Shown here in pieces: positions 12,494-29,087 of a stretch of DNA of 52,418 nt. The stretch covers positions 1 to 52,418 of the forward strand of contig JAUXSN010000006.1 in NCBI GenBank assembly GCA_030679895.1. Reading direction: 5' to 3'. A program made the translations under genes and the position numbers. The notes beneath the pieces were generated by a model that made no database searches, was not told the DNA's origin, and was given only the letters and a program-made list of their open reading frames with translations. Each line of letters starts with the position of its first letter. Positions within the stretch are counted from its first letter, which is position 1. The stretch is from Candidatus Moraniibacteriota bacterium. Its GTDB lineage: Bacteria > Patescibacteriota > Minisyncoccia > Moranbacterales > UBA11712.

Positions 12494-12976
12494 TTAAGGC
12501 TGCTTTTTCGCAAGCAGATGTGAATCTTTCTGAAGATGTTTTCTTTTTATAAGAAGATAGAGGAGCGAAAAGTAAACAAGCAGGGCAATTGCTCCGGCAA
12601 AAACAGCGTATCCGACCAAGAGAGGAACAGCGGTTTCGCGAAGAATATTCCAACTGAACAAATATTTCCAGCCAAGTGTTGCTGTTTCATGAAAATCATT
12701 CGAAAGTAATTTTGGATCAACTCGAAATATCAGTCCGCCGACAGCTGCCGCAATGGGAAGTACAAACACAAGCGTCCACATGTTCACCGCAAGCACTCCA
12801 GCCAACGCCGCGAGGCGATTGAGCCGGAAAATATACGCGAAAAGAAGCGTGGCAAGAACGCCCTCACCAGGCATGATCCCCAAAAAAATTCCCAGAGCCG
12901 CGCCGCCGGCCACTTTGTGGGGAGTATCGTCGATCAAAAAAAATTGTTTTATATATTCTCTTATCCTTTTTTTCAT
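12494..12976 (-). CDS. DUF2062 domain membrane protein
   Basis: DTPHKVAGGAALGIFLGIMPGEGVLATLLFAYIFRLNRLAALAGVLAVNMWT characteristic of DUF2062. Confidence 0.8.
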   Translation of the reverse strand: MKKRIREYIKQFFLIDDTPHKVAGGAALGIFLGIMPGEGVLATLLFAYIFRLNRLAALAGVLAVNMWTLVFVLPIAAAVGGLIFRVDPKLLSNDFHETATLGWKYLFSWNILRETAVPLLVGYAVFAGAIALLVYFSLLYLLIKRKHLQKDSHLLAKKQP

Positions 12977-14184
12977 CCTTTTTTCACAATATAACTTTTC
13001 GACTCTTTATCTATTGTTTTGGCTTTGTCAATCTCCCTTCGGGCTTCGATCGGCAGAACTCCTGATACTTTCCGGAGGGTAATTCCGTCAACTTTGAGTA
13101 TTTCTTCCCATTTGCCCAGCGGCTCCAAAATTTCCCGTAGTTTTTCCGCGTCGTACCGATAAGTTTTTCTAAGAGTCCTCAAAATACTCCCGGCATCCGC
13201 GAAAACCTGCTCGACATTTTTTTGATCCATATATTTTCCAATGATTTCCTGGAGCTCTCCCAAGCGGTCGGACTTGGACTTCACTTCGCTTCTCGTTGAA
13301 ACAAATTCTTCAATTATCTTTTCTATATCTATTTCTTCGCTGTCTTTTTCTCGGAATTTATGCTTCCACATCGGACAGATCTTTTGATAACCGCACCAGT
13401 CGCAAAGTCCGGAAATTTTTGGCTCGAACTTTGACTGTTTGATTTGACCAATAAGATCGACGATCAATTCCTCGCTTTTTTTGACCTGCTCAAGCGATCT
13501 TTCCGAAGACAATTTCACGCCGTGCTTGAGATAATAGAGGCTCACTTTTATTTTATCCAGATGCTCCGCCTCTTTGGGATAGCGCCGAAGAAAGCTGGAA
13601 AGGTATATCGAAAGCTGCAGGTCGCTGTCCACTTTTTCTTGAGAAGGAAGCTTCTTGGCGGTTTTATAGTCAATGATCTCATACCCGTCTTCGGTTTTGT
13701 CGATACGGTCAATGATACCGGATACAATATGATTTTCCTCTCCCTCTTCGACCTCGATCTGAAAATAGGACTCGAGATCCACGATATTTATCTTTGAAAT
13801 GTCGTTTTTTTTGTAATAATCCTGGATCATTGACACTCCTTGCGAAAAAGCCGACCGCTCTTCGATCTCGTCGGTGAAAACCTCCGCGTTCCAATTTTTG
13901 GAAAAAAAATCGAGAGCCTGCTCCAGAGTAGGGGAGATGATGCCCGGCGTATGGATCAATTTCATCGTGCCGTGGATCAGCGTGCCAAAAACCTGCTCCT
14001 TGCTCTTGGGAGTTTTGATCCGGTCAATCTGGGAAAATTTATATTTCAGCGGACAAGTGAGAAACGTGTCGAGAGCCGAATAGGATGTTTTCATGGTGCT
14101 AATAAGGTTTGACCTTGAGGAATTTCCCGACGAATCGTCGGGAAAGGAAAAGATTGAACCTTGATATTTAATTACGCCAGCCAT
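12973..14184 (-). CDS. PD-(D/E)XK nuclease superfamily protein (RecB/Cas4-like with putative Fe-S Cys set)
   Basis: SYSALDTFLTCPLKYKFSQIDRIKTPKSKEQVFGTLIHGTMK; DGYEIIDYKTAKKLPSQEKVDSDLQLSIYL; CDWCGYQKICPMW. Start may be ATG 14094 rather than 14184. Confidence 0.9.
   Translation of the reverse strand: MAGVIKYQGSIFSFPDDSSGNSSRSNLISTMKTSYSALDTFLTCPLKYKFSQIDRIKTPKSKEQVFGTLIHGTMKLIHTPGIISPTLEQALDFFSKNWNAEVFTDEIEERSAFSQGVSMIQDYYKKNDISKINIVDLESYFQIEVEEGEENHIVSGIIDRIDKTEDGYEIIDYKTAKKLPSQEKVDSDLQLSIYLSSFLRRYPKEAEHLDKIKVSLYYLKHGVKLSSERSLEQVKKSEELIVDLIGQIKQSKFEPKISGLCDWCGYQKICPMWKHKFREKDSEEIDIEKIIEEFVSTRSEVKSKSDRLGELQEIIGKYMDQKNVEQVFADAGSILRTLRKTYRYDAEKLREILEPLGKWEEILKVDGITLRKVSGVLPIEARREIDKAKTIDKESKSYIVKKG
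14104..14162. repeat. 59-nt palindromic element, copy 1
   Basis: AAGGTTTGACCTTGAGGAATTTCCCGACGAATCGTCGGGAAAGGAAAAGATTGAACCTT; inner stem CCCGACG/CGTCGGG; same length as copy 2 at 28282 with 7 mismatches. Confidence 0.9.
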
Positions 14185-14335: not shown

Positions 14336-14354
14336 CCCAACATTGAATGTTGGG
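14336..14354. repeat. Palindrome CCCAACATT-G-AATGTTGGG ahead of the 14365 CDS
   Basis: 9-bp perfect arms, 1-nt spacer; preceded by a partial copy CCCCAACAT at 14320. Confidence 0.8.
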
Positions 14355-26680: not shown

Positions 26681-27859
26681 TTACAATTTCGATCGCAAAT
26701 AATTATAGTATTCGCTGTTGTGGCTGTTTTTCGTCGTGTATTCGCGCAAAGTTTTTTCCCGGGCTTCTTTCCTCAAGTGCCGGCGCAGATTCTCGTCCAA
26801 TATCAGTTTTTCCAATTTTTCAAACCACTCATCTTCGTTTCCAGCCAAAAATCCGTCCACACCGTCCTCAATCGCTTCCCGATAGGTTTCATTGCTCACC
26901 GCCACGCTTGGAACACTGGAGATTCCAGCTTCGAAAAATTTTAGTTCAGACTTTGATTCGCAAAACGGATTGTCTTCGAGAGGAATTATGTTTATGTCCA
27001 CGTTGGAAATATTTTCCAAATGTTTTTTCCATGGCGCGAAAGGCAGTCTTTCTATTTGATTTTCATATTTTTCAAATTTATCGCCGATATTGAGCGGTCC
27101 GGCCAGCACCAATTTTACTTTAGGATATTTTTCAAGAATTCGAACCAACGCATTTTCAACTGTCGCGAAATTTTTGTCATGCCCTTTCGTTCCGCTGAAA
27201 TAGCCTATTCGCACCGACTTGGAGACTAAGTCCCCAATTGGGGACTTAGTCTCCAAAATTCTTTCGACAGTTTTCAAATCTTTGAGCGACAGCTTATTCG
27301 TCGAAACAAAAACTTTTTTGCCATAGCTTTCCAGAATTTTCGCGAGGTACGCCGTTGTCGTCACGCAAGTTTTCACGTACGGGTCTTTCAAAATTTCCTC
27401 ACCCACTCCTTTTTCATATTGTTTTTGCTCAAGAATATTCATTTTTTCGTAATGACTCGTCGCTTGGATATATTTCGGATCGAAAACGAGGTCGTCTGTT
27501 TCAAAAATAATTTCTTTCCCCATTTTTTTCGCGCCCTCAACAAGTTTTGCCACCTTGGACGTATAGAGCGTCCGATGGAAAATGAAGATTTTGAATTTGT
27601 CCGCATAGCATGGCAGAAACGGGTTGTCTTGAATCGTCACGCTACATTTGAAGCCGTGAAGGCGCAGCTCTTCGGCCTGATTATGCGCCCGATATCGCGC
27701 ACTGTCCCCGACCCCGACTGTCACGAATAAAATATCGCCCGGCCGCACCCGGCCGAACTGCGCGAAAAAAGATTTTGCCACCCTTTTCCCGCCCCGAATC
27801 AGCCCTTCTTGCTTCAAAGCGTTAAGCGCTTTTCCGGTTTTTATGAGAAGTGTTTTCAT
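26681..27859 (-). CDS. Glycosyltransferase family 4/1-like
   Basis: VRIGYFSGTKGHDKNFATVENALVRILEKYPKVKLVLAGPLNIG; SELKFFEAGISSVPSVAVSNETYREAIEDGVDGFLA. Confidence 0.88.
   Translation of the reverse strand: MKTLLIKTGKALNALKQEGLIRGGKRVAKSFFAQFGRVRPGDILFVTVGVGDSARYRAHNQAEELRLHGFKCSVTIQDNPFLPCYADKFKIFIFHRTLYTSKVAKLVEGAKKMGKEIIFETDDLVFDPKYIQATSHYEKMNILEQKQYEKGVGEEILKDPYVKTCVTTTAYLAKILESYGKKVFVSTNKLSLKDLKTVERILETKSPIGDLVSKSVRIGYFSGTKGHDKNFATVENALVRILEKYPKVKLVLAGPLNIGDKFEKYENQIERLPFAPWKKHLENISNVDINIIPLEDNPFCESKSELKFFEAGISSVPSVAVSNETYREAIEDGVDGFLAGNEDEWFEKLEKLILDENLRRHLRKEAREKTLREYTTKNSHNSEYYNYLRSKL
27219..27256. repeat. 38-bp perfect palindrome, in frame inside glycosyltransferase
   Basis: TTGGAGACTAAGTCCCCAATTGGGGACTTAGTCTCCAA, no loop, all 19 pairs match; encodes LETKSPIGDLVSK. 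Confidence 0.95.
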
Positions 27860-29051
27860 TTTTCTTTAATAATTGTCTGAAAATTGCCAATAATTTTTGC
27901 GTTTCTTCTTCTTCACTAAAGTTTTCCAGATCATAATCAATCTTCGAGAGTGGTTCGATATTCTCCAGAATACTTTTTAGATCGCCAAAATTATCCATAT
28001 ACAAGCCCTTTTCTTTCAGCCTCGCTCGATTAAATTCATTTTCAAAACAAATTATCGGCAGACCGGACGCCATCAGATTCATCAATTTTCCGCTTGATTC
28101 CGTACTGCCGCTTTTAGGATCAATCGCCGCATCGGCCAATGCCAAAAAATGCGGCAGAGAGAAATATTTCACTTTTCCGGCGAAACAGACAGAATCTTCG
28201 AGATTGTTTTCAGCAATATATTTTTTGTATTTATCCTCGTCTTCCCCGAACCCGCCGAGCAATAACTTCCAACTCTTTTTCAAGGTTTGACCTTGAGGAA
28301 TTTCCCGGCGAACAGCCGGGAAAGGGAAAGGTCGAACCTTAGAAAAAGATTCCAATAACTCTCCCACTCCCTTATTATCGCTCAATCCGCCGATATAGAC
28401 CAGCAACCGACTGTCCCCCGCCCATTCTTTTATTTTTTCGATTTTTTCCGCTTCGTCTTTAGATAATTTCGGCGAATTATGAAATAAATCCACATCAATT
28501 CCGTCTTTTATAATTTGGACATCGGATGTCCAAATTATAACATTTTCACTGCTAATCACTATTTTGTCAGCCCAATTGATGACTACGCGCGAAAACCAGA
28601 CAAAAAATTTCTGCGCCAGACTGTTTTTCTTGTTATAACTTCGGAATTCTTCTTCAAGATCCCCTTGCAAATCAAAAACGATCGGAATTTTTGAAAAAGA
28701 TAATTTTTTGGCCAGATACCCGATTGCCAATCCTTCATAAAGATGCGCGTGAATCGCGTCCGGATGAAAATTTATAATCTCCCGCCGGACCAAAAAAAGA
28801 AGTTTGAGATCTAGCCAGATTTTTCCCCACGAAAATCCGGGAGATGTTTTTTTGTAGCTTTTCGCACCTTTGATCCTTACGATATCCAAACCTTCAGTAT
28901 TTTCGCCAATATGATACGTACAAAGGCGCACCTCTGCGCCCAGTTTTTGCAAGTATTTCGCTTCATTGTATATCCGCATATGCCCGCCCCGGTCGGAAAA
29001 AAAAGGCGTGGCCGCTATTGTGAGGATTTTCAATGCTTTTTTACCTAACAT
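27822..29051 (-). CDS. Glycosyltransferase family 4, carrying palindromic insertions
   Basis: LKILTIAATPFFSDRGGHMRIYNEAKYL; LVYIGGLSDNKGVGELLESF; AAIDPKSGSTESSGKLMNLMASGLPIICFENEFNRARL. Confidence 0.9.
   Translation of the reverse strand: MLGKKALKILTIAATPFFSDRGGHMRIYNEAKYLQKLGAEVRLCTYHIGENTEGLDIVRIKGAKSYKKTSPGFSWGKIWLDLKLLFLVRREIINFHPDAIHAHLYEGLAIGYLAKKLSFSKIPIVFDLQGDLEEEFRSYNKKNSLAQKFFVWFSRVVINWADKIVISSENVIIWTSDVQIIKDGIDVDLFHNSPKLSKDEAEKIEKIKEWAGDSRLLVYIGGLSDNKGVGELLESFSKVRPFPFPAVRREIPQGQTLKKSWKLLLGGFGEDEDKYKKYIAENNLEDSVCFAGKVKYFSLPHFLALADAAIDPKSGSTESSGKLMNLMASGLPIICFENEFNRARLKEKGLYMDNFGDLKSILENIEPLSKIDYDLENFSEEEETQKLLAIFRQLLKKNENTSHKNRKSA
28282..28340. repeat. 59-nt palindromic element, copy 2, in frame inside glycosyltransferase
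   Basis: AAGGTTTGACCTTGAGGAATTTCCCGGCGAACAGCCGGGAAAGGGAAAGGTCGAACCTT; encodes KVRPFPFPAVRREIPQGQTL. Confidence 0.92.
28508..28540. repeat. 33-bp perfect palindrome, in frame inside the same glycosyltransferase
   Basis: TTATAATTTGGACATC-G-GATGTCCAAATTATAA, 16-bp perfect arms; encodes VIIWTSDVQII. Confidence 0.95.
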
Positions 29052-29087
29052 CCGATGTTAGGACGCTCCTAACATCGGATGTTAGGT
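29043..29087. repeat. Nested palindrome over the glycosyltransferase start codon
   Basis: ACCTAACATCCGATGTTAGGA-CGC-TCCTAACATCGGATGTTAGGT: 21-bp perfect arms, 3-nt loop; each arm is itself near-palindromic. Confidence 0.95.

Follow-up and report, generated by a model that had tools for sequence, protein, structure and literature searches.

Classical REPs are extragenic; in SBW25, 14 of 1067 16-mers overlap genes (Bertels and Rainey 2011, PMC3116915). In the REPIN/RAYT system (PMC3116915), two short palindromes in inverted orientation form one larger hairpin that is dispersed as a unit within one genome, and palindromes of this kind also border Y1/HUH transposase genes, different genes having different palindromes. 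RPEs, as summarised from Ogata 2000 and 2002 in PMC2229807 and PMC10969869, are Rickettsia-specific units of 105-150 bp; according to these summaries they are palindromic DNA that lies in frame in conserved protein genes, where the extra peptide is tolerated, and also between genes. Correia/NEMIS and ERIC MITEs are small non-autonomous elements with terminal inverted repeats, sometimes fused into ORFs, which have TA termini and target duplications (PMC2229807).

Here we describe an element from a 52,418-nt stretch of Candidatus Moraniibacteriota DNA, in the following called the window, that shares with REPINs the inverted palindromes and the dispersal as a unit, with RPEs the in-frame and intergenic occurrence, and with the MITEs the small size and inverted termini. 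Its arm pattern also recurs beside Y1/HUH transposase genes of other Patescibacteria. The element differs from REPINs in lying mostly within open reading frames, in having no GTAG-like tetranucleotide conserved outside the arms and in the shortness of the units in Patescibacteria (34-65 nt overall), and the candidate transposases diverge from the NCBIfam RAYT model. In the case of RPEs, as far as these summaries describe them, the differences are the length (about 60 nt or shorter here), the patescibacterial host, the reading in five frames and the presence of a candidate transposase. Compared with Correia/NEMIS and ERIC, neither TA termini nor target duplications were seen, and the arm pattern matches that of hairpins beside Y1 transposase genes. 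Because two REPIN hallmarks and the RPE length fail, the element is neither a plain REPIN nor a plain RPE. We consider it likely that the element is a REPIN-like, non-autonomous companion of a RAYT transposase, living inside genes as RPEs do.

Two window copies and their dispersal

A first-pass annotation of the window had claimed two copies of one palindrome, equal in length at 59 nt, with seven differences. Direct sequence comparison confirmed this (Table 1), with mismatches at positions 27, 32, 33, 35, 45, 50 and 52 and a BLAST E value of 7.6e-16 between the copies. The compensatory stem change that had been pointed out at pair 27/35, where copy 1 has A-T and copy 2 has G-C, is real, and proved to be one among many. 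Folding is much more stable than in shuffles for both copies, with -36.6 kcal/mol (z -7.5) for copy 2 and -25.4 kcal/mol (z -4.4) for copy 1.

Table 1. Coordinates of the two element copies, their host genes and related palindromes in the window
Feature	Position	Strand	Remarks
PD-(D/E)XK nuclease gene (PDDEXK_1)	12973..14184	-	downstream of copy 1
Element copy 1	14104..14162	+	59 nt; 60 with G at 14163
Copy 1 inner stem-loop	14123..14145	+	
GT4-type glycosyltransferase gene (Glyco_transf_4 + Glycos_transf_1)	27822..29051	-	host of copy 2
Element copy 2	28282..28340	+	59 nt; 60 with C at 28281; in frame within GT4 gene
Copy 2 left arm AAGGTTTGACCTT	28282..28294	+	forms small hairpin by itself
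Copy 2 inner stem-loop	28301..28323	+	9 bp stem, 5 nt loop
Copy 2 right arm AAGGTCGAACCTT	28328..28340	+	inverted repeat of left arm
Perfect palindrome within GT4 gene (amino acids VIIWTSDVQIIK)	28508..28540	.	segment variable among orthologs
Related 45-nt palindromic doublet (CCTAACATCSGATGTTAGG twice), GT4 gene 5' end	29043..29087	-	

Searching the own genome (57 contigs, 1,027,761 bases) with the 59-mer as BLAST query yielded more copies on other contigs, so that the proposed objection, that no further copies exist, falls away. A chance pair of palindromes is ruled out by these further copies together with the zero matches of a reversed control pattern in 287 genomes. About 16 copies of the 59-nt type, counting relatives with altered arms, lie between unrelated flanks in the own genome. 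Seven are in frame within genes (tsaD, tgt, ligA, cca, murB, an M24 peptidase gene and the GT4 gene), six are in 5' leaders or N-terminal extensions, copy 1 of the window and another copy at tsaD being among these six, and the remaining three are intergenic. Two copies 714 nt apart on contig C33 were considered as flanks of a transposase gene and rejected, their positions being within and before tsaD.

Copy 1 had been placed upstream of a PD-(D/E)XK gene or within its N-terminus, in an open frame, and it does lie in an open frame upstream of the domain. Since residue 31 is the likely start Met and the PDDEXK_1 domain begins with residue 33, copy 1 can be read as a leader or an N-terminal extension; it ends 9 nt ahead of the likely ATG at 14094. 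A distance of about 9-12 nt between the end of the copy and a following start codon was seen here (14094-14104) and at loci L097, L098, L099 and L119.

In Moranbacteria relatives, copies were found in lepA, miaB, tsaE, xseA, copA and others, with gatA and pheT as further host genes. Just past the xseA stop (L095:1774-1831) lies a relative of 58 nt that shares the arms and encloses a terminator-like CTCCGAA/TTCGGAG stem. Altogether, the proteins hosting the element in frame include TsaD, Tgt, IleS, LigA, LepA, MiaB, ArgS, TsaE, GatA, LeuS, PheT, ValS, MurB, TopA, XseA and CopA; NCBIfam recognises the host proteins (IleS, LeuS, ValS, PheT, GatA, TsaD, LepA, LigA, TopA, PurL, MurB, CopA and others), many at full length. 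Five of the six possible frames are used, in both orientations, which indicates that it is the DNA that spreads and not the peptide.

When GTDB genomes were scanned for pairs of arms separated by 10-40 nt, at least 111 stretches matched. Among the matches listed, 80 titled stretches came mostly from Patescibacteria (Kaiser-, Lloyd-, Nomura-, Taylor-, Zambryski-, Moranbacteria and others), four were from Verrucomicrobia or Bacteroidales, and some titles carried no lineage. As the arm code was present in only 9 of 287 sampled genomes of the phylum, its distribution is patchy. Of 141 doublets, 61.7% were located in open ORFs that reach 150 aa or more and have open flanks, compared with 34% for random placement of the same elements and a coding-density proxy of 78%; REPINs, in contrast, are predominantly extragenic.

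Anatomy, covariation and unit length

The order of parts in the element is AAGGTTYGACCTT, GRGGAAT, an inner stem-loop, AGGRA and AAGGTCGAACCTT. Each 13-nt arm is a small hairpin of its own (AAGGT-YNR-ACCTT) and the two arms are inverted copies, so two REP-like palindromes in inverted orientation combine into one hairpin. The arms vary jointly: AAGGTTCGACCTT, AAAGCTTGGCTTT, AAAGTTTGGCTTT and AAAGCTAAGCTTT each occur with a matching partner arm 46 nt away.

Covariation was assessed on 25 distinct 59-nt copies. Standard pairs filled 96.7% of the pair cells, both sides had changed in 14 of the 22 pairs, and 74 double-change cells were observed against 21.7 in shuffles; shifting the register by one column lowered the double-change cells to 7-9. 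Together with the further copies, this strong covariation supports the earlier proposal of a hairpin that is maintained, or propagated as a structured unit. Pair 7 is frequently a T-G wobble, which lies on the same element strand every time, regardless of the strand of the host gene. This suggests folding of a single strand of DNA and not of mRNA; a shared founder would be another possible source of the pattern.

Outside the arms no conserved outer 4-mer (e.g. GTAG) was found, only a G directly after the right arm in 28 of 36 copies, or a C before the left arm in 7 of the remaining 8. Because the right-flank G and the left-flank C represent one unit in two reading directions, the element unit is about 60 nt, equal to 20 codons. 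A consistent target duplication was not found in the flanks of the 36 copies. At least four of the six frames are free of stops in 31 of the 36 copies, compared with 16-22% of random hairpins or shuffles. The in-gene lengths of the 59-nt type are 53, 56, 59 and 65 nt, all 2 mod 3, except for one 55-mer in ligA that adjoins a 19-nt partial arm (total 74). For shorter doublets of 36-42 nt a fixed unit length fails in some cases, since they occur in frame with every length mod 3 represented. An Rfam search of the window gave no match.

Insertion sites in host proteins

In the GT4 gene, translation of the minus strand through copy 2 gives KVRPFPFPAVRREIPQGQTL, the peptide that the first-pass annotation had reported within this ORF. 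Ortholog alignment showed that the peptide is missing from the GT4 of five genomes (G001, G004, G006, G007 and G022), which answers the objection that it might be ancestral. The related claim, that removing about 60 nt leaves a natural GT4 junction, stands only approximately, because the empty orthologs have about 5 extra residues at this place. In three genomes from three other genera (G002, G003 and G005) this site is occupied by a similar type of element, in opposite orientation and with AAAGCT-type arms; the site is thus a recurrently or anciently occupied loop. In the AlphaFold model of GT4 (mean pLDDT 73.5), residues 242-258, which make up most of the inserted peptide, are predicted as a loop with pLDDT < 50 between a helix and a strand. 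The related doublet at the 5' end of the gene separates it from a GT2 gene. The final 9 nt of the doublet form the codons MLG, including the GT4 start ATG, and the GT4 orthologs begin at MKILTI, a few codons further in.

In the case of LepA, two loci (L106 and L193) have the element in one loop and two others (L156 and L199) in another. As the element occupies different loops, each pair serves as the insert-free comparison for the other pair. Comparison with Aquifex LepA from the PDB showed aligned stretches that stop at residue 72 and restart at 99; the element peptide occupies residues 76-95, inside this gap. The AlphaFold model of LepA with four rows (mean pLDDT 47.6) was not used for conclusions. 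Similarly, the Tgt stretch KGSTLGNSLVNSQGRKRSNL is located where PDB homologs are shorter. The net insert lengths derived from alignments range from about 13 to 23 codons, those for GT4 and XseA being about 13-19 codons and not 20, indicating that the flanks have drifted since insertion. Nucleotide-exact empty sites were not obtained from GT4, XseA or MiaB orthologs, the loops of XseA and MiaB being too variable. In MiaB (L307-L314), one loop has palindromic sequence of several families in most of eight Moranbacteria genomes; judging by these sequences, it is a recurrently colonised loop.

RAYT-like transposase genes and the proposed origin of the element

The own genome contains five Y1_Tnp (RAYT-like) genes. 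All five have palindromes at their ends or close to them, with a different sequence for each gene, and the same holds for most RAYT-like genes of the family. Their proteins show the motifs YH..NRG, PNHxH and T.YFN....R.G.LFQG. Y1_Tnp, the IS200-like HUH domain with PNHxH, is their sole Pfam match, in some cases slightly below the cut-off; their top NCBIfam match is REP_Tyr_transpos (NF047646), at 25-50 bits and below the curated cut-off of 80. Among the at least 111 loci, AAGGTYNRACCTT doublets at most 120 nt from, or overlapping, the end of a RAYT-like ORF numbered 8, compared with 0.58 expected; these eight belong to other Patescibacteria. Matching palindromes lie on both sides of the RAYT gene at L153, L202, L203 and L134. 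In the window's genome and its 7 family members no RAYT with an exact AAGGTTCGACCTT arm was found, the nearest arms at RAYTs being AAAGCCGAGCTTT in G007 and AAGGCCGAACCTT in G003. The member with the exact AAGGTTCGACCTT arm may be a relic, or may be served in trans or by an overlooked transposase.

RAYT-like coding sequences often contain one palindrome of their own about 200-250 nt from one end (L026:1473-1497, L025:1537-1559, L022:1732-1768 and L062:1733-1755), possibly for self-regulation. Besides the palindrome within the GT4 gene, the window has perfect palindromes at 2727-2749, 14336-14354 and 27219-27256, and those at 2727 and 14336 match palindromes flanking the RAYT-like genes L073 and L023. 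Stems of at least 9 bp number ten in the window versus 2.5 expected, several of them within ORFs.

These observations lead to a mechanism in which the element, whose conserved middle part has a stem of its own and is enclosed by two short palindromes that form hairpins (AAGGTTYGACCTT and its inverse), would be maintained as a nucleic-acid structure and not as a peptide. A RAYT-like Y1/HUH transposase would most likely recognise the hairpin arms on single-stranded DNA and copy or move the whole unit. The open frame would often survive the insertion owing to a unit that is a multiple of three and free of stops in most frames. Selection would then retain insertions in tolerant surface loops, where the insert may be neutral, and conserved proteins would thereby gain about 18 to 22 residues, presumably translated.

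A different mover was also considered, namely an RPE-like mobile palindrome carried by another enzyme, or spread by replication or recombination at hairpins, with the RAYT palindromes merely similar. Template switching could copy hairpins, the reviews PMC2229807 and PMC10969869 do not name an enzyme for RPE movement, and the exact-arm RAYT is missing from the window's family; nevertheless, the excess of doublets of the same arm pattern beside RAYT genes, with arms matched on both sides in several cases, makes this explanation unlikely. Considerably less probable is a structured RNA, with selection acting in the mRNA on a terminator or a regulatory hairpin. It would fit the strong covariation, the copies shortly ahead of start codons and the terminator-like relative after xseA, but many copies lie within coding genes in both orientations, the window has no Rfam match, and the strand-fixed wobble at pair 7 fits DNA folding, or else a shared founder.

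The remaining two explanations concern the peptide. A stable hairpin within conserved genes might be bypassed in translation or excised from the RNA, and so never be translated. A skipped insert, however, would need neither the open frame that the intragenic copies keep nor the in-gene lengths of 2 mod 3, where even the ligA 55-mer and its partial arm add up to 74; we regard this as highly improbable. Least probable of all, to the point of being negligible, is a conserved functional peptide domain common to unrelated proteins. One reverse frame does give KVRPFPFP..REIPQGQTL in GT4, TsaD, Cca and LigA, yet reading of one DNA in five frames results in unrelated peptides, orthologs exist without the peptide, and the GT4 loop is predicted to be disordered. 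The REPIN-like element of a RAYT transposase is therefore our preferred reading.

In the open-access literature searched, we found no prior paper on such in-gene elements of Patescibacteria. With regard to annotation, the element peptides do not represent domains, and start sites and alignments in this phylum can be distorted by their presence. What emerges is a REPIN-like element with an in-gene life-style and with a transposase candidate beside its sister elements, and because of this adjacency, the idea of a transposase writing new loops into essential proteins is directly testable. More broadly, RAYT-like transposases of Patescibacteria might maintain several in-gene REPIN families, each with its own arm code, that recurrently supply surface loops to essential proteins of translation, tRNA modification and DNA repair, with loops such as those of MiaB, TsaD, LepA and GT4 being recolonised by different families; we see the chances of this wider picture as evenly balanced. 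If true, it would also suggest by what mechanism the palindromes within Rickettsia genes, so far unexplained, could have arisen.
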